Shown here: piece after piece, positions 6,852-21,168 of the stretch
Layout: each line of letters opens with the position of its first letter
Numbering within the stretch: position 1 is the first letter of the stretch
DNA from: Herpetosiphonaceae bacterium
Lineage (GTDB): Bacteria; Chloroflexota; Chloroflexia; Chloroflexales; Kallotenuaceae
Length of the DNA stretch: 64,000 bases
Direction of reading: 5' to 3'
NCBI GenBank assembly: GCA_013821605.1
Contig: JACDGP010000004.1
Coordinates: 1-64,000 of the forward strand
Translations under genes and position numbers: made by a program
Notes under the pieces: generated by a model
What the model saw: only the letters and a program-made list of their open reading frames with translations
What the model was told of the DNA's origin: nothing
The model's database searches: none

Positions 6852-8807
6852 TTAGGTATCCCAAGGTGCCCGCGTGCGCCCAATTTGGGGCAGCCCATTC
6901 CGCAGACGGCTCTCCGCTGAACTGATCAAAAGGTGTGCTTCGAATGCTGCAGCCTCCGCCGACCGAACAAACTTGAGCAGCACTTCGTTCCAACCTGCTA
7001 CTAGCGGAACTGTGCAGTACGACTCGGAGTCGCCATAGTAGCCGGGTCGTAGCGGCCGATACCGAAAGGACTCGACCTTGACGCTGCCATTCACCCACAG
7101 CTTAGCTGGACAGGTTGTTGCCACACCGATGTAGACCTCGCGCGCGTCGGGACTCCACAAAAACGTTTGGGCATAGATCGAACCCGCCTGCACAAAAACA
7201 TCCTTCAGCGGCACTGCGTTGTCCAATGAATACACGTCATGCCAGTTGCCGGAGCGACTCGTACTTGAAGACACTGGACCGGTTGGTTGTTCGGGCTCCT
7301 CGCGCGCATCAAACAGCTCTCGGTCTGTTCGTCCATCGGCTAAAAAGGGACCGGTGTAGCGGTATTTATGTGCGCCAATGAGGATAACGGGGGTATCCGG
7401 CTGCGCGGGGCGCGACGCTACTTCGATTGACAGGCTGAGTCGGTTTGTATTTAGGAGGCGAACTGCTGGAGGTGTAGTAAGTTCCCAGCTGACTGGCACA
7501 GATGAGTGCGCAGGAATATCAAGCTCACGTACCTGGGGCGCAGGCGTCCAACCAGCAGGCACACGCAACTCACACTGCGCGTGGAGCATGTCAGGGTGTG
7601 GATTCGTGAGGTGCGTGATAATCGACGTCTGGGCGTCGGGTTGGATCGCCGGGGAGTCACCATAGGCGACACCAACATGCAGATTACTGGCAGGGTAGTC
7701 GATGCGCATCGGATCGGCAGACCAAAGTGTTTCGATCCATGCCGGAGCATACAGTGTGCGTGGGTCAACGGGTACATCCGTGCTGGTCAGCTTGATCTCC
7801 TGTTCCGCGAGGATACGTTCGGCCTGCACACACAACCGCTCTGTCAATTCTGCGAGATTAGTTGGTACCGGATTAGAGCCATCAGAGGCATGACGGAGAC
7901 CACCCCAGGACTCGTTGGTCGCAATCGTCTCGCCTAGCGGTGCAGTCCAGCGTTCCGGTAAACCCTTGCGACCTGCAATGATTCCCAGAATACTGCCTAA
8001 GGTTGCGCCCGTGCAGTCGGTGTCATAGCCACAGTTGACGGCTATACACAGCGCGTCGCCGAAATCCTTGCCATACAACCAGCCAATCACCTGAAAAGCT
8101 ATGTTGATCGGTGAATACTGGGCAACATGGTGGGGCGTCGCCGTGAGCACCCGTTGGCGCGCCGTTTTCCAATCCTCGCCCGCCGCATGTGCCGCCCGCG
8201 CGGCAGCAATGGCCTGTGCTGTCTTGCTCCAAGCTGGGATATAGGTGTTCGCAATCTCCAATAGTTGTTCACGATCACCGATCACAAACGCCGCCGCTTC
8301 AAGTGCCGCGTTGAATAGCTCGCCGAAAACGCTTTCACCCCCGGCATGATCGCAAATCGCATCTTCATAGGCATAACGCACGGCAACGGCAGGTAGCCCA
8401 GGCGCGATGCAAGCCCAGATCTCCGAACGGATGGGACAGCCCATGCAATCTTTGAACCAATTGTTGTACGCGCCGGAGACCGGGGGGAGCAAGCCCAGTT
8501 TCAAATTCGTTTTGCTTAAACCATACTCGTCCCAGTTGTAGCCGATATGATCGAGCCAGTACTGTGCAAGATCCGCTGCTTTCAGCTGTGGGCCAACCTC
8601 CTCAAGTGCTTTAAGCCAGATCAGTTGCATTTCTAGGTCATCATTGGGGATGCCGCCTTCCTGCAGCTCTGGATACCACCAAACATCGAACGGCTCTGAC
8701 TCGCCCCAGGCCTTTTCCAATGGTTGCCCAAGTGTGCCACCACAGTTCTTACCGAGCCAGCAGCCGTACACTTTGTCGCGAAAGGTTGTGCCTCGTACAT
8801 CGATCAT
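6852..8807 (-). CDS. ADP-ribosylglycohydrolase-family protein with C-terminal beta domains
   Basis: The first ~330 residues form an ADP-ribosylglycohydrolase (DraG/MacroH) domain. The opening GCWLGKNCGGTLGQP, the acidic PNDDLEMQ near residue 56 and CGYDTDCTGATLGS near residue 262 correspond to the two metal-binding signatures. The usual TDDT is changed to NDDL here. The remaining ~320 residues are not part of the usual ~300-residue enzyme and look beta-rich, ending in a segment like a galactose-binding or PA14-type sandwich. Members fused to such modules in sugar operons probably act on small glycosides rather than on ADP-ribosylated proteins; this is inference. The ATG at 8807 has AGGA at good spacing; an ATG nine bases upstream (8816) is possible. 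Confidence 0.85.
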   Translation of the reverse strand: MIDVRGTTFRDKVYGCWLGKNCGGTLGQPLEKAWGESEPFDVWWYPELQEGGIPNDDLEMQLIWLKALEEVGPQLKAADLAQYWLDHIGYNWDEYGLSKTNLKLGLLPPVSGAYNNWFKDCMGCPIRSEIWACIAPGLPAVAVRYAYEDAICDHAGGESVFGELFNAALEAAAFVIGDREQLLEIANTYIPAWSKTAQAIAAARAAHAAGEDWKTARQRVLTATPHHVAQYSPINIAFQVIGWLYGKDFGDALCIAVNCGYDTDCTGATLGSILGIIAGRKGLPERWTAPLGETIATNESWGGLRHASDGSNPVPTNLAELTERLCVQAERILAEQEIKLTSTDVPVDPRTLYAPAWIETLWSADPMRIDYPASNLHVGVAYGDSPAIQPDAQTSIITHLTNPHPDMLHAQCELRVPAGWTPAPQVRELDIPAHSSVPVSWELTTPPAVRLLNTNRLSLSIEVASRPAQPDTPVILIGAHKYRYTGPFLADGRTDRELFDAREEPEQPTGPVSSSTSRSGNWHDVYSLDNAVPLKDVFVQAGSIYAQTFLWSPDAREVYIGVATTCPAKLWVNGSVKVESFRYRPLRPGYYGDSESYCTVPLVAGWNEVLLKFVRSAEAAAFEAHLLISSAESRLRNGLPQIGRTRAPWDT

Positions 8808-8852
8808 ACAGCCCATCCTGCTCTATCTATGTCATCAACGACCGGCTAGCTT

Positions 8853-16073: not shown

Positions 16074-16208
16074 TTCCGTAACCGCTCAGTATAAGCGTCC
16101 TTGGTGGGTATTCGCCGCGATGGAACTGGCTTCCCTCCCGGTGATCCTGCTGTTTATGGTCTTGCAACGCTATTTCTATCAATCCGCAGTTATGACAGGT
16201 GTGAAAGG

Positions 16209-17042
16209 ATGAATGGACGAGTGAGTATGCGCTTTGCGGGCAAGGTCGCGCTCGTTACTGGCGCAGCACAGGGCATCGGGCGCGCGACCGCGCTGCGCTT
16301 CGCTCAGGACGGTGCGGATGTCGTGATCGCTGATGTTAATCTGGCGGGAGCCGAGGAGTCTGCCCGCGAGATCGACAAGCTGGGTTGCGCGGCCCTCGCG
16401 GTGCAGGCCGACGTTACGGATGAGCACAACTGCGAGCAGTTGATCGCCGCGATCACCGAGCGCTTCGGACATCTCGATATCGTCTTTGCGAATGCCGGGA
16501 TAGGCGGAGGAGCGCCGGTCAACGAGTTGCCGGCAGCCCAGTGGGATCGCGTGATCGCCGTCAATCTCCGGGGCGTCTTTCTGACCTGCAAGTACAGTAT
16601 TCCGGCGCTGATCAAGGCTGGTGGCGGCGCGATCATCACGATGTCGTCTTCGATGGCCGGCTGGGATACCTCATCGACCGGTGCCGCCTATATGGCGAGC
16701 AAGGAGGGTGTCAGTGGCTTGACCAAAAGTCTAGCCCTGCAGCTCGGTGGGCATGGTATCCGGGTCAATGCCATCTGTCCGGGCGTGATCCAGACGCGTC
16801 TGGACTTCAAGCCCGGTACCAGCGAGGCCGAATGGCAGGCGCGCTACGACCGGTTCGCCAAGCGTATTCCGCTGCGCCGTGTTGGCCAGCCAGAAGACGT
16901 CGCGGCGGTCGTCGCGTTTCTTGCGTCGGACGACGCACGCCATATGTCGGGCTCACTGCTGCTCGTTGACGGGGGGCAAACCCTGCAGAGTTGGAGCAAT
17001 GCGCCCAACGACGAGAGCTATCCACTAGACGGTAACTGGTAA
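16209..17042 (+). CDS. Short-chain dehydrogenase/reductase (SDR)
   Basis: The product is a classical SDR of about 277 residues. It has the TGAAQGIG cofactor loop, an Asp ending the second strand (VVIADVN) that favours NAD, NAG in FANAGIGG, and the catalytic Tyr-Lys pair in AYMASK near residue 161. SDRs serve as L-rhamnose or L-fucose 1-dehydrogenases and as 2-keto-3-deoxy-rhamnonate dehydrogenases in non-phosphorylating pathways, so the position after a rhamnosidase is suggestive. The ATG at 16209 follows GAAAGG with no spacing; the ATG at 16227 (MRFAGK) may be the true start. Confidence 0.87.
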   Translation: MNGRVSMRFAGKVALVTGAAQGIGRATALRFAQDGADVVIADVNLAGAEESAREIDKLGCAALAVQADVTDEHNCEQLIAAITERFGHLDIVFANAGIGGGAPVNELPAAQWDRVIAVNLRGVFLTCKYSIPALIKAGGGAIITMSSSMAGWDTSSTGAAYMASKEGVSGLTKSLALQLGGHGIRVNAICPGVIQTRLDFKPGTSEAEWQARYDRFAKRIPLRRVGQPEDVAAVVAFLASDDARHMSGSLLLVDGGQTLQSWSNAPNDESYPLDGNW

Positions 17043-17070: not shown

Positions 17071-17871
17071 GTGCGAACTTTTGATCGTCTCGGCAAGCGT
17101 AAGGCAGTTCTTGGCATGGTCCATCTCGGCACGATGCCGGGAACACCATTCTATGAAGAAGATAGCTACGAGGCAACCTTTGAAAAGGCCATGGAGGACG
17201 CGACTGCGCTCGACCAAGGTGGTGCGGACGGTTGCCTGGTCCAGACGGTTGATCGCGTTTATAGTGTCAAGGATGAATCGAATCCGACGCGCGTTGCGGG
17301 CGTGGCGAACATCGTCCGCGCGATCGACAAAGCGACGCGGCCAGATTTTCAGATCGGCGTCCAGATTATGCGCAACGCCCTGAAGGCATCCCTGGCCGTC
17401 GCCAAGGTTTGCAACGGTAGCTACCTGCGCTGTGGTGCGTTGGTTGGCGCGACCCTCACCGCACACGGCATGGTCGAGGCCGATCCCTTGGATGTGATGG
17501 AATACCGCGTCATGATCGGAGCCCAGCATGTCAAGATGATCGTTGAGATCGACTCGATGCACTTCAAATGGCTCGGTGGCAAACCGATCGCAGAGGTGGC
17601 ACGCAATGCAAAATATGTCGGCGCGGACGCAGTCTCCTTGGGCGACCCGGACGAGGAGACGACACTCCGTATGATCCATGATGTGCGTCACGCCGTGCCC
17701 GGTCTGCCAATCATCCTCGCCGGCTACACCAATCATGCAAATGCTGCTCGCCTTATGGCCGATGTGGATGGCGCGTTCGTCGGCACCTGCTTGGAGCGTG
17801 GCGGCTGGGCCGGACACATTGATATAGACCGCGTGCGCGAGTACGTCGAGATCGTTCGTGGCCTCGAATAA
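17071..17871 (+). CDS. BtpA/SgcQ-family TIM-barrel protein
   Basis: The 266-residue protein matches the BtpA family: LGMVHLGTMPGTP at the N-terminus, DQGGADGCLVQ, the repeated GA and GADAVSLGDPDEET segments of a TIM barrel, and LAGYTNHANAARLM with DGAFVGTCLE near the end. BtpA was named from a role in photosystem I accumulation in cyanobacteria, but bacterial members such as E. coli SgcQ lie in sugar operons and are probably enzymes of unknown reaction. The start is a GTG preceded by AAAGGA at seven bases. It is followed by a small ORF, a PfkB-like gene and an ADP-ribosylglycohydrolase gene, all closely spaced, which points to a shared pathway. Confidence 0.85.
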   Translation: MRTFDRLGKRKAVLGMVHLGTMPGTPFYEEDSYEATFEKAMEDATALDQGGADGCLVQTVDRVYSVKDESNPTRVAGVANIVRAIDKATRPDFQIGVQIMRNALKASLAVAKVCNGSYLRCGALVGATLTAHGMVEADPLDVMEYRVMIGAQHVKMIVEIDSMHFKWLGGKPIAEVARNAKYVGADAVSLGDPDEETTLRMIHDVRHAVPGLPIILAGYTNHANAARLMADVDGAFVGTCLERGGWAGHIDIDRVREYVEIVRGLE

Positions 17872-17914: not shown

Positions 17915-18061
17915 ATGTATGTTGCCTGGGTGTTTCCGGTGATCGGCGATGTGCGCGAGGAGTTCTCGCCGCTGGTCTACCATATTGGTGCCGATCTGTT
18001 TGCGTCGTTTGTCGCCGAAGATCTCGGGCGCATGCTCTTCCAAAGTGATGATCCCGTATGA
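17915..18061 (+). CDS. 48-residue ORF coupled to the PfkB-like gene
   Basis: A short frame starts at an ATG four bases after AAGGA and ends in TGA overlapping the ATG of the next gene (ATGA). The peptide is 48 residues, with a hydrophobic start (MYVAWVFPVIG) and an acidic, amphipathic remainder ending in DDPV. I do not recognise it. The ribosome site, the tight fit between two genes and the coupling to the kinase-like gene argue that it is translated, perhaps as a leader or small subunit. Confidence 0.4.
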   Translation: MYVAWVFPVIGDVREEFSPLVYHIGADLFASFVAEDLGRMLFQSDDPV

Positions 18062-19020
18062 CCGCCGACGTAGTGCACATGCTCGACTACCTCATTTACG
18101 GCAAAATCATCATCGACAACATCCGGCTACGCGACGGTCAGGTTGTCGATGGCGTGCTCGGCGGTGGGGGTCCACAGGCCGCCTTCGGCGCGCGCTTATG
18201 GACGGAAGGAGTGGGCTTTTTGTCGCGCGCCGGTCGCGACATCGAGCCTGAATACCTCCAAACCCTTGAACGACTGAGCATCGACTTGCGTGGCGTGACG
18301 TTGTACGACGATATTCTGACACTGCGCAATCAAATGATGACATACGACGAGAACGAGTACATGCGAGATCACAAGGGCGAGTTAAGCCGCGTCGTGATTC
18401 GTGAGGAGAACTGGGTCAAGCTGCTGTCGCAGCCGCTGACCTTGCCCGCAGCTTATACGTCGCCACGCGTAATCCACCTCGTCACCGAGTTTGCCGACGA
18501 GCCAATGGTACATGACGCCCTGACACTCCGGGCAGCCGGTGCGACCTTCTCGCTTGAGCCGCTGATCGATTTCCACGAATGGAGTAACCGTGATGCCATC
18601 ATTGGCCTGTTGCCGCAGGTTGACCTCGTCACGCCCGACTGGCTCTCAGCCAGCAGCATCGCCGGCAGCGATGATCCGCGACACGTTGTCGACTACTGGT
18701 CGCGGCTGGGTCCAAAGCTGGTCGCGATTCGGCACGGGCATCATGGTTCATATGTCTGGGATGCCGACCATGATCAACTCTGGCACATTCCGCCGGTGCC
18801 GATCCAGGTCATCGATCCAACTGGTGCCGGTAATAGCTACGGCGGCGGCTTATCCATCGGATGGAGCCAGACGCAGGATGCACTCCTGGCCGGCTGTTAT
18901 GCATCCGTGTCAGCCGCGTTCCTGGTAGAGCGCGTCGGCCTGCCGCAGCTTTCGCCTGATCTAATGAACGCGGCGAACCAGCGCTTCGACGCAGCCGTTG
19001 ATGCGGCGCGGCGACTGTAA
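18058..19020 (+). CDS. PfkB-family (ribokinase-like) protein with Asn in place of the catalytic Asp
   Basis: The 320-residue protein has the ribokinase-like fold. The N-terminal part contains DYLIYGKIIIDNI and the GG-rich GVLGGGGPQAAFGARLW substrate region; the C-terminal part carries the second signature as DPTGAGNSYGGG. In sugar kinases the residue after GAG is the catalytic base Asp; here it is Asn259. Fungal MAK32-like proteins share this GxGNS form, so it may represent a distinct subfamily rather than a decayed kinase. Its neighbours, BtpA-like and ADP-ribosylglycohydrolase-like, recall the E. coli yegU-yegV pair. The substrate is unknown, and whether it phosphorylates at all is open. 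Confidence 0.8.
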   Translation: MTADVVHMLDYLIYGKIIIDNIRLRDGQVVDGVLGGGGPQAAFGARLWTEGVGFLSRAGRDIEPEYLQTLERLSIDLRGVTLYDDILTLRNQMMTYDENEYMRDHKGELSRVVIREENWVKLLSQPLTLPAAYTSPRVIHLVTEFADEPMVHDALTLRAAGATFSLEPLIDFHEWSNRDAIIGLLPQVDLVTPDWLSASSIAGSDDPRHVVDYWSRLGPKLVAIRHGHHGSYVWDADHDQLWHIPPVPIQVIDPTGAGNSYGGGLSIGWSQTQDALLAGCYASVSAAFLVERVGLPQLSPDLMNAANQRFDAAVDAARRL

Positions 19021-19053: not shown

Positions 19054-21168
19054 ATGTACCGTCCTTCTGATTATATTGAACGCGTATATGCCGGCGTGTT
19101 GGGCAAGCTGATTGGGGTCTACCTGGGCCGGCCGTTTGAGGGCTGGAGCTATGAACGGATCATGGCCGAACTCGGGCCGATTCACTACTATGTCCACGAG
19201 CAACGCAAGGTGCCGCTAGTCGTAACGGATGACGATATTGCGGGTACCTTCACCTTCCTCCGCGCGTTGCCCGACTACGGCAACCGCCGCGATCTCACGC
19301 CGGCGCAGATCGGCCAGAGCTGGCTCAACTACATTATCGAAGGACGTACGATCTTGTGGTGGGGTGGGATGGGTAACTCGACAGAACACACGGCCTATCT
19401 GCGTCTTAAGGAGGGCATCCATGCGCCGGAAAGCGGATCAATCGCATTGAATGGCAAGATCATTGCCGAGCAAATCGGAGCCCAAATTTTCATTGATGGA
19501 TGGGCAATGGTTGCGCCCGGCGACCCTGAGTTGGCGGTTGATCTGGCGCGTCGGGCAGCGAGCGTTAGTCATGATGGTGAGGCGATCTATGGCGCGCAGG
19601 TCATTGCAGCCATGGAAGCTCAAGCGTTTGTGGAGGCCGATCTTGGGAAGCTACTCGACACGGGTGTCTCCTTCATCCCGCAGGACTCGGTCATCTATCG
19701 CCTGATCAATGATATTCGGGAGTGGCATGCACGTGAGCCCAGTTGGCAAAAGACGCGAGAAGAGATTGCGGAGCGGTATGGGTATGACAAGTACCGGGGT
19801 GCTTGTCATATGGTCCCCAACCATGCGTTGATTATTCATGCACTGCTGTATGGGGACGACGACTTCCAGAAGTCGATGATGATTGTGAACACGAGCGGCT
19901 GGGATACCGACTGCAACGCGGGCAATGTGGGCTGCCTGCTGGGAATCAAAAACGGGCTGGCGGGGATCGAGGCCGGGCCGGACTGGCGCGGACCGGTCGC
20001 GGACCGGTTGTATCTTTCTACGGCTGATGGCGGACGAGCCATTACCGATGCGGTGACGGAAACGTACCAGGTCGTGAATATTGGGCGGGCGCTGGCGAAC
20101 GAGTCTCCGCTGAGTCCCAAAGACGGCGCGCGGTTCCACTGGGAATTGCCCGGCTCAGTCCAAGGCTTTCAACCAGAAGTGGGTGGCGATGCAAGCGCTG
20201 TTGTGCTAGAAAACGTGGCTGGTCATAGCACATTGGGCACACGTAGCCTGGCGCTACGCTACCACGATCTGGTGCCTGGCCGCGCCGCGCGGGTAGCGAC
20301 GCCGACGTTTACGCCACCTGAGGTCATGAGCATGCCGGGCTACCAGCTGTTGGCCTCACCGACGCTGTATCCGGGCCAGACCGTACGTGCATGGGTCGAG
20401 GCCGATGGTGGGAACGCCGGGCCGGTCAGCTGCCGCCTGTACCTGCGCTGGTATGGGGCCGATGATAGGCTTGTGCGTGGCTATGGGCCGCAGATGGTGT
20501 TAGCTCCGGGGGCCAAGCATCTGTTTACGTGGATGATCGAGGACTTGGGCGGCGCGCCGGTTGCCGAGATTGGCGTGGAGTTAAGCGCTGCGCAACCTAC
20601 CAATGGCGTCGTTTACCTGGATTATCTGTCTTGGGATGGTGCCCCCAACGTTGTCTTTAGGCGGCCTGTTTCCGGTGGGATGCTCTGGCGGCAGGCATGG
20701 GTCGATGGGATGGACCAGAATGAAGAGCGCTGGCCTGAGGCCTTTCATCTGGTGCAAAACAACGGGCGCGGTCTCTTGAGCCAGGGTACGCGCGAGTGGA
20801 CCAACTATCAGGTGAGCGCGACGATCAGATCCGATCTCGCGACTGCTGTGGGCATTGGCGCGAGGGTACAGGGCATGCAGCGCTACTACGCGCTGTTGCT
20901 CCAGCGCGGTGGCACGGTACGCCTGGTCAAAGTGCTGGATGGCGAAACGGTGCTGGACGAAGCCAAGTTGCCCTGGACTTTCGGCAGCATGTACAGCTTG
21001 CGCCTCCAGGTCAATGGGGGACGCTTGTGTGGCTGGGTCGATGACCGGCTGTTGTTCGACCTGGCGGATGGGGAGCGGCCGTTGAAGGGTGGTGGTGTGG
21101 CACTGATCTGCGAAGAAGGCGGCCTGGCGACGGACGCCGTCATGGTGCAACCGGCTGCGCCGCATTAG
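19054..21168 (+). CDS. ADP-ribosylglycohydrolase-family protein with C-terminal lectin-like domain
   Basis: The first ~340 residues are an ADP-ribosylglycohydrolase domain with GVLGKLIGVYLGRPFEGW, the metal-binding TDDDI near residue 58, and TSGWDTDCNAGNVGCLLG near residues 280-297. The rest of the 704 residues is beta-rich. The final ~180 residues resemble a concanavalin-like (LamG/DUF1080-type) sandwich, visible as REWTNYQVSATIRSD and YYALLLQRGGTVRLVK with alternating strands. The domain is not preceded by a signal peptide. The gene follows the PfkB-like gene after 33 bases. I infer hydrolysis of an N- or O-glycosidic bond in a small molecule or glycan rather than de-ADP-ribosylation. Confidence 0.86.
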   Translation: MYRPSDYIERVYAGVLGKLIGVYLGRPFEGWSYERIMAELGPIHYYVHEQRKVPLVVTDDDIAGTFTFLRALPDYGNRRDLTPAQIGQSWLNYIIEGRTILWWGGMGNSTEHTAYLRLKEGIHAPESGSIALNGKIIAEQIGAQIFIDGWAMVAPGDPELAVDLARRAASVSHDGEAIYGAQVIAAMEAQAFVEADLGKLLDTGVSFIPQDSVIYRLINDIREWHAREPSWQKTREEIAERYGYDKYRGACHMVPNHALIIHALLYGDDDFQKSMMIVNTSGWDTDCNAGNVGCLLGIKNGLAGIEAGPDWRGPVADRLYLSTADGGRAITDAVTETYQVVNIGRALANESPLSPKDGARFHWELPGSVQGFQPEVGGDASAVVLENVAGHSTLGTRSLALRYHDLVPGRAARVATPTFTPPEVMSMPGYQLLASPTLYPGQTVRAWVEADGGNAGPVSCRLYLRWYGADDRLVRGYGPQMVLAPGAKHLFTWMIEDLGGAPVAEIGVELSAAQPTNGVVYLDYLSWDGAPNVVFRRPVSGGMLWRQAWVDGMDQNEERWPEAFHLVQNNGRGLLSQGTREWTNYQVSATIRSDLATAVGIGARVQGMQRYYALLLQRGGTVRLVKVLDGETVLDEAKLPWTFGSMYSLRLQVNGGRLCGWVDDRLLFDLADGERPLKGGGVALICEEGGLATDAVMVQPAAPH

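Follow-up and report, generated by a model that had tools for sequence, protein, structure and literature searches.

In PfkB kinases the aspartate (Asp) of the GAGD motif is regarded as the residue central to catalysis, and the models of the family name every member a kinase. Fungal MAK32 (cd01943) presumably carries an asparagine (Asn)-containing motif resembling the one described here, and FrlD and FrlB are a fructoselysine kinase/deglycase pair. For ketohexokinase a distance of 2.7 A between the Asp and the acceptor hydroxyl is reported (PMC2651755), and exchange of Asp for Asn in E. coli Pfk-2 reportedly abrogated most of the activity and affected binding little (PMC5405513). In the plant PfkB proteins FLN1 and FLN2 the G/AXGD motif is altered, and they are reported to lack fructokinase activity (PMC9698557). 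E. coli yegTUV encodes a nucleoside transporter, an ADP-ribosylglycohydrolase and a PfkB protein, and its function is given as unknown (PMC10819704).

The DNA analysed here (the window; a stretch of 64,000 nucleotides from a Herpetosiphonaceae bacterium) encodes at positions 18058-19020 (+) a PfkB-fold protein of 320 aa with GAGN in place of GAGD, termed PfkB-N. The Pfam PfkB profile PF00294 matched this protein with an E-value of 4.8e-17 and 62.7 bits (cut-off 25.8). An AF2 model based on 37 homologues (pLDDT 93.6) predicted a ribokinase-like fold that matches nucleoside and sugar kinases along its full length, with 3kd6 as best match (Z 34.5, rmsd 2.3 A, 291 residues). The motif reads D253-P-T-G-A-G-N259 and belongs to the C-terminal signature VIDPTGAGNSYGGG, in which Asn259 stands where the family has Asp, as a preliminary description of this ORF had reported. 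Its codon in the DNA is AAT (18832-18834, +). Retained core positions are D20, G35, G36, G227, G230, D253, G256, G258 and G263; the N-terminal GG motif (G35-G36) is found in 100% of 80 Asn-type tree rows.

The preliminary description also regarded the other motif residues and the substrate half as kept. This held for the glycines, D20 and D253; it did not hold for the NxxE motif, which is altered to D194-W-L-S197, or for positions 167 and 225, which differ from Asp-type relatives. Asp194 (codon GAC, 18637-18639, +) aligns with the Asn of NxxE, and the motif Glu is Ser197 here. Glu167 (codon GAG, 18556-18558, +) is predicted to end the strand 163-168 in the AF2 model and is replaced by Asp in Asp-type relatives, and Arg225 is encoded by CGG at 18730-18732 (+). 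The window protein is a member of PF00294 without the catalytic Asp and without the intact NxxE of canonical PfkB kinases; judged from alignments, it differs from them at two catalytic motifs, and the letters it carries there are invariant among its kin. Since the canonical defining Asp is absent, "kinase" is a hypothesis for PfkB-N.

Compared with PfkB/ribokinase-fold nucleoside kinases (3kd6 from Chlorobium tepidum; MJ0406, 2c49, matched by the window model with Z 26.8; pseudouridine kinases), PfkB-N shares the whole fold, the GG motif and the glycine core of GAGD, and its clade shares a nucleoside-related gene context. It differs from them in having Asn instead of the catalytic Asp, Glu167 instead of Asp and Arg225 instead of Lys or Thr, as well as in the altered NxxE in the window. 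FLN1 and FLN2 retain the Asp and vary at the position preceding the last Gly (GSGD, ASGD; PMC9698557), whereas in the clade of PfkB-N the glycines are retained and the Asp is altered.

A pattern scan of genome contigs, from which 80 of 127 confirmed loci were kept, revealed Asn in 76 of the 80 and Asp in four (L063, L065, L068, L074). The loci belonged to Chloroflexota (66), Bacillota (9), Thermomicrobiota (3), Armatimonadota (1) and Actinomycetota (1). One of the two scan patterns contained Asn and the scan was therefore biased, so profile searches without that bias were run. Of 158 genomes from the same class, 11 gave a match (E 1e-50); of 400 from the same phylum, 41 did (E 1e-40), many of these matches being lower-scoring Asp-type relatives; and of 150 genomes of one Bacillota family, 7 did, where ten matches comprised nine Asn proteins and one Asp protein. 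All three recovered the same Asn group. Among 55 distinct rows from loci outside the pattern scan (sequences found twice were kept under one locus, and four nested Asp rows were counted with the scan loci), residues 167/225/259 were E/R/N in 17, D/K/D in 33, D/T/D in 3, T/K/D in 1 and D/gap/D in 1. Most relatives come from metagenome-assembled contigs. A tblastn search of a plasmid collection detected no match to PfkB-N, and literature on PfkB catalytic Asn variants and on BtpA, SIS or nucleoside-hydrolase neighbours, covered mostly at title level, contained no description of the clade.

A private mutation, a sequencing error or gene decay would be suggested by the single base that separates AAT from GAT and by an adjoining SIS gene that is only a remnant. 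We reject this explanation as extremely improbable, as Asn is present in 76 of the 80 related loci and in the profile-sampled genomes, and the ORF is full-length and shares 44-56% identity with its 13 closest loci.

To compare the active sites, all near-full PfkB stretches in the collected loci were surveyed, giving 212 distinct homologues (113 Asn, 99 Asp). Glu167 together with Arg225 was found in 113/113 Asn homologues versus 4/99 Asp homologues; the Asp proteins carried D/K (61), D/T (26), E/R (4, the nested proteins described below), E/T (1) or other combinations (7) at 167/225. We name the clade with this apparently remodelled active site ERN, after Glu167, Arg225 and Asn259. D20, G35, G36, D253, G256, G258 and G263, which include the anion-hole glycines, were 97-100% conserved in the 80 Asn rows of a quick tree. 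The NxxE motif was present as N194/E197 in 72 of the 113 Asn proteins. D194 occurred in 36, of which 30 are without E197, and the remaining 77 all keep E197, so that each of the 113 retains a carboxylate at one of these two positions. All 12 window-subgroup rows of the tree have D194, and none of them retains E197. A swap of the NxxE carboxylate (D194 for E197) was considered, as D194 is present in each of the 17 tree rows that lack E197, which is suggestive; these amount to only 3-4 independent pairs with a sign test p of 0.125-0.25, and the swap is therefore not claimed. A side branch (L145, L154, L184, L185, L188, L189) displays GCGN instead of GAGN or GGGN, with Arg at 225 where this position was read.

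A careful tree of 82 rows was calculated after removal of the motif columns, omission of 14 of 119 rows (long or distant) and thinning of near-copies to <60% identity. In this tree a branch with 100/100 support separated 58 Asn and 3 Asp rows from 21 Asp rows, and the inner Asp rows (L063; L065 with L068) were placed on well-supported branches. A quick tree of all 119 rows likewise needed three changes and left 36 Asp rows outside, with an SH-aLRT of only 92 for the clade branch. An Asn-only clade was rejected by a tree test (p 4.5e-5). The four Asp proteins with Glu167 and Arg225 are nested returns from two events, and three of them lie beside a nucleoside hydrolase gene. If Asp is ancestral, as elsewhere in the superfamily, Asn was gained once and reverted twice; the change count itself gives no direction.

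From these sequence comparisons it is very probable that Asn marks a distinct clade, mostly of Chloroflexota with some Bacillota and others. The clade support and the invariant Glu167 and Arg225 bear out the earlier view of a distinct group and not decay. According to the preliminary description, close homologues with Asp in the same context would mark Asn as private. This applies in part: four close homologues with Asp exist, three of them in the same context. All four fall within the Asn clade, and Asn is therefore not a private mutation.

In the window, PfkB-N is preceded by a short-chain dehydrogenase gene (16101-17042, +), whose domain starts at residue 48, so that the true start is probably downstream of the listed TTG, and by a gene for a BtpA/SgcQ family TIM-barrel protein (17071-17871, +), the sole BtpA match in the genome. 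Between BtpA and PfkB-N lies a 48-aa frame (17915-18061, +) that matches the C-terminal part of a SIS (GlmS isomerase-like) protein with 37.8 bits to positions 318-357 of the SIS profile, and its TGA overlaps the ATG of PfkB-N. Downstream follows an ADP-ribosylglycohydrolase-family gene with a long C-terminal extension (19054-21168, +; Pfam match). L017 and L021 hold BtpA, full SIS, YjbQ and PfkB-N in that order. Given the remnant and this intact order, the window operon looks reduced and probably descends from a BtpA-SIS-PfkB-N operon. A profile search detected no SIS remnant in the BtpA-PfkB gaps of L014, L015, L016, L018, L020 and L023.

As antisense ORFs in the GC-rich loci hampered gene calling, gene contexts were counted by HMM scan in 82 loci (the window, the contig L158 of its own genome and the 80 scan loci), and neighbour families were clustered and then named from representatives. 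Counted as loci and not as independent events, and with some neighbourhoods cut by contig ends, the 68 loci outside the window subgroup contained nucleoside hydrolase (45), SIS (42), YjbQ (31), ADP-ribosylglycohydrolase (21), 8-oxoguanine-deaminase-like (14), uridine-phosphorylase-like (12), BtpA (11), pseudouridine-phosphate-glycosidase-like (PF04227; 10) and adenosine deaminase (5) genes, with at least one nucleoside enzyme in 59. Most of the clade has nucleoside hydrolase, uridine-phosphorylase-like, deaminase and GlmS-like SIS genes as neighbours. In the 14 loci of the window subgroup the same scan detected BtpA in nine, SIS in five, any nucleoside enzyme in one and nucleoside hydrolase in none. 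BtpA lies directly upstream (<400 bp) in seven of these 14 and ADP-ribosylglycohydrolase genes recur, in agreement with the neighbours first noted for PfkB-N. SIS directly adjoins BtpA in 13/82 loci, and a SIS gene is present in 45/77 loci with PfkB-N.

The genome of the window contains 16 PfkB matches by profile search, with PfkB-N as the sole PfkB on its contig. The second Asn copy (L002) is 33% identical to the window protein. Three of the four nucleoside hydrolases of this genome are located on the 18.6-kb contig of L002, together with two SIS genes, and with four such genes per 5.9 Mb their clustering by L002 is unlikely to be due to chance.

The SIS proteins matched the GlmS isomerase domain (2.9e-38, profile comparison). 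The BtpA model is a TIM barrel (pLDDT 91.1), with 3-hexulose-6-phosphate synthase, KDPG aldolase, thiamine-phosphate synthase and TrpA among its nearest solved structures, which are tied in Z; the sequence profile points weakly to TrpA. These matches suggest phosphosugar substrates. Where a SIS gene lies beside the PfkB gene (in the window only a remnant), the arrangement would resemble that of FrlD/FrlB, and the SIS proteins resemble, more weakly than GlmS, a fructose-amino-acid-6-phosphate deglycase (3eua). The clade differs from that pair by Asn for Asp and by nucleoside hydrolases and BtpA as partners, and one SIS representative (L035) reached 22.8 bits with the NCBIfam FrlB equivalog model, far below its cut-off of 430. 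The mix of gene families in ERN loci is also like that of yegTUV, for which no SIS, BtpA or nucleoside hydrolase is named (PMC10819704).

With phosphosugar-like SIS and BtpA partners and no other PfkB on the window contig, a kinase role would be the simplest fit. Our tentative reading, which we hold to be quite plausible, is that PfkB-N is a remodelled PfkB protein that keeps nucleotide and sugar binding and phosphotransfer without an Asp base. It would bind ATP and a sugar or riboside, and phosphate would be transferred while Glu167, a candidate replacement base, or the substrate itself takes over proton removal. The phosphorylated product may then pass to the SIS-type (isomerase/deglycase-like) and BtpA-type (TIM-barrel lyase-like) enzymes, the sugar presumably being supplied by nucleoside breakdown in most of the clade and by some other glycoside in the window subgroup. 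This reading is supported, as far as alignments and models go, by the linkage of E167, R225 and N259 in 113/113 proteins with the kept glycines, D20, D253 and a carboxylate at 194/197, by the predicted kinase fold with a nucleoside kinase (3kd6) as best match, and by the Asp returns, which keep Glu and Arg and in three of four cases lie beside a nucleoside hydrolase. The loss of the NxxE Glu in the window subgroup and the reduction of SIS to a remnant in the window count against it. So do the reported effect of the Pfk-2 exchange (PMC5405513) and the closeness of the Asp to the acceptor hydroxyl in ketohexokinase (PMC2651755).

The same Pfk-2 exchange, in which substrate binding was reportedly retained and activity lost, favours the main rival, namely that PfkB-N is a pseudokinase that binds nucleotide and sugar or nucleoside without phosphotransfer and acts as a sensor or allosteric partner of SIS, BtpA or an Asp-type PfkB. 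Plant fructokinase-like proteins set a precedent as PfkB proteins that reportedly lost kinase activity and gained other roles (PMC9698557). Asp-type PfkB genes are present in 36/77 Asn loci and could encode the real kinase there; however, the stretch covered in the other 41/77 shows none. Moreover, the fixation of E167 and R225 in very diverged proteins appears to exceed the needs of binding, and a Pfam profile scan found no DNA-binding domain in the window protein. We regard a pseudokinase as possible, if less than probable.

The joint fixation of several active-site changes would also fit another reaction on the same fold that needs no strong base, for instance one in which the phosphoryl group is passed to or taken from an acidic moiety such as an anomeric hydroxyl or a sugar acid, or a phosphatase-like reverse reaction. 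The neighbouring nucleoside hydrolase and uridine-phosphorylase-like families yield free sugars and sugar-1-phosphates; the returns to Asp in the same context, on the other hand, suggest that Asp can serve the reaction too, and we consider such a reaction unlikely. 

Returning to phosphotransfer, it is possible, though less likely than not, that the ERN proteins as a whole are working sugar or riboside kinases that do without the Asp base regarded as essential in the ribokinase fold, with Glu167/Arg225 or the substrate substituting, and that they are central to a so far undescribed pathway in which nucleosides and glycosides are degraded together with SIS and BtpA enzymes.

A clade that dropped the Asp together with two other fixed changes and regained it twice offers a natural experiment on phosphate transfer by the PfkB fold. 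The recurrent, uncharacterised set of PfkB-N, SIS, BtpA and nucleoside hydrolases in Chloroflexota and gut Bacillota may form a pathway that is directly testable. Beyond what was first noted for this ORF, the analysis adds the nucleoside-hydrolase/SIS context of most of the clade, the switches at 167 and 225, the change in NxxE and the SIS remnant upstream of PfkB-N.

Further observations concern the loci themselves. Two or three Asn-type PfkB genes are present in 22/77 loci, e.g. L032, L040, L076 and L077, as if for several substrates or a hetero-oligomer. Positions 3646-18578 of L158 (contig C20 of the window's own genome) form an extended series of nucleoside genes, all on one strand, that includes an Asn-type PfkB along with ABC transporter parts, three nucleoside hydrolases, two SIS genes, an Asp-type PfkB, a permease and YjbQ. 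In L017, L021, L050, L053, L054, L066 and L088 the Asn-type PfkB gene is followed by a cassette that encodes an ABC ATPase, an ABC-2 permease and another conserved protein, for which Pfam gave no match. The BtpA barrel (17071-17871) beside SIS (as in L029, L036 and L040) recalls the hexulose-phosphate synthase/isomerase pair, and the best match of the BtpA model is a fused enzyme of this kind (9lj9), with a Z of 20.1 that many other barrels share. Residues ~307-704 of the protein at 19054-21168 form an extension of ~400 residues without a Pfam match at E 0.001, and long forms of this family also adjoin Asn-type PfkB genes in L087, L091 and L093. A second ADP-ribosylglycohydrolase-family gene of the window (8001-8816, -) shares a gene run with members of the enolase-superfamily, amidohydrolase and zinc dehydrogenase families, an arrangement reminiscent of sugar-acid breakdown.
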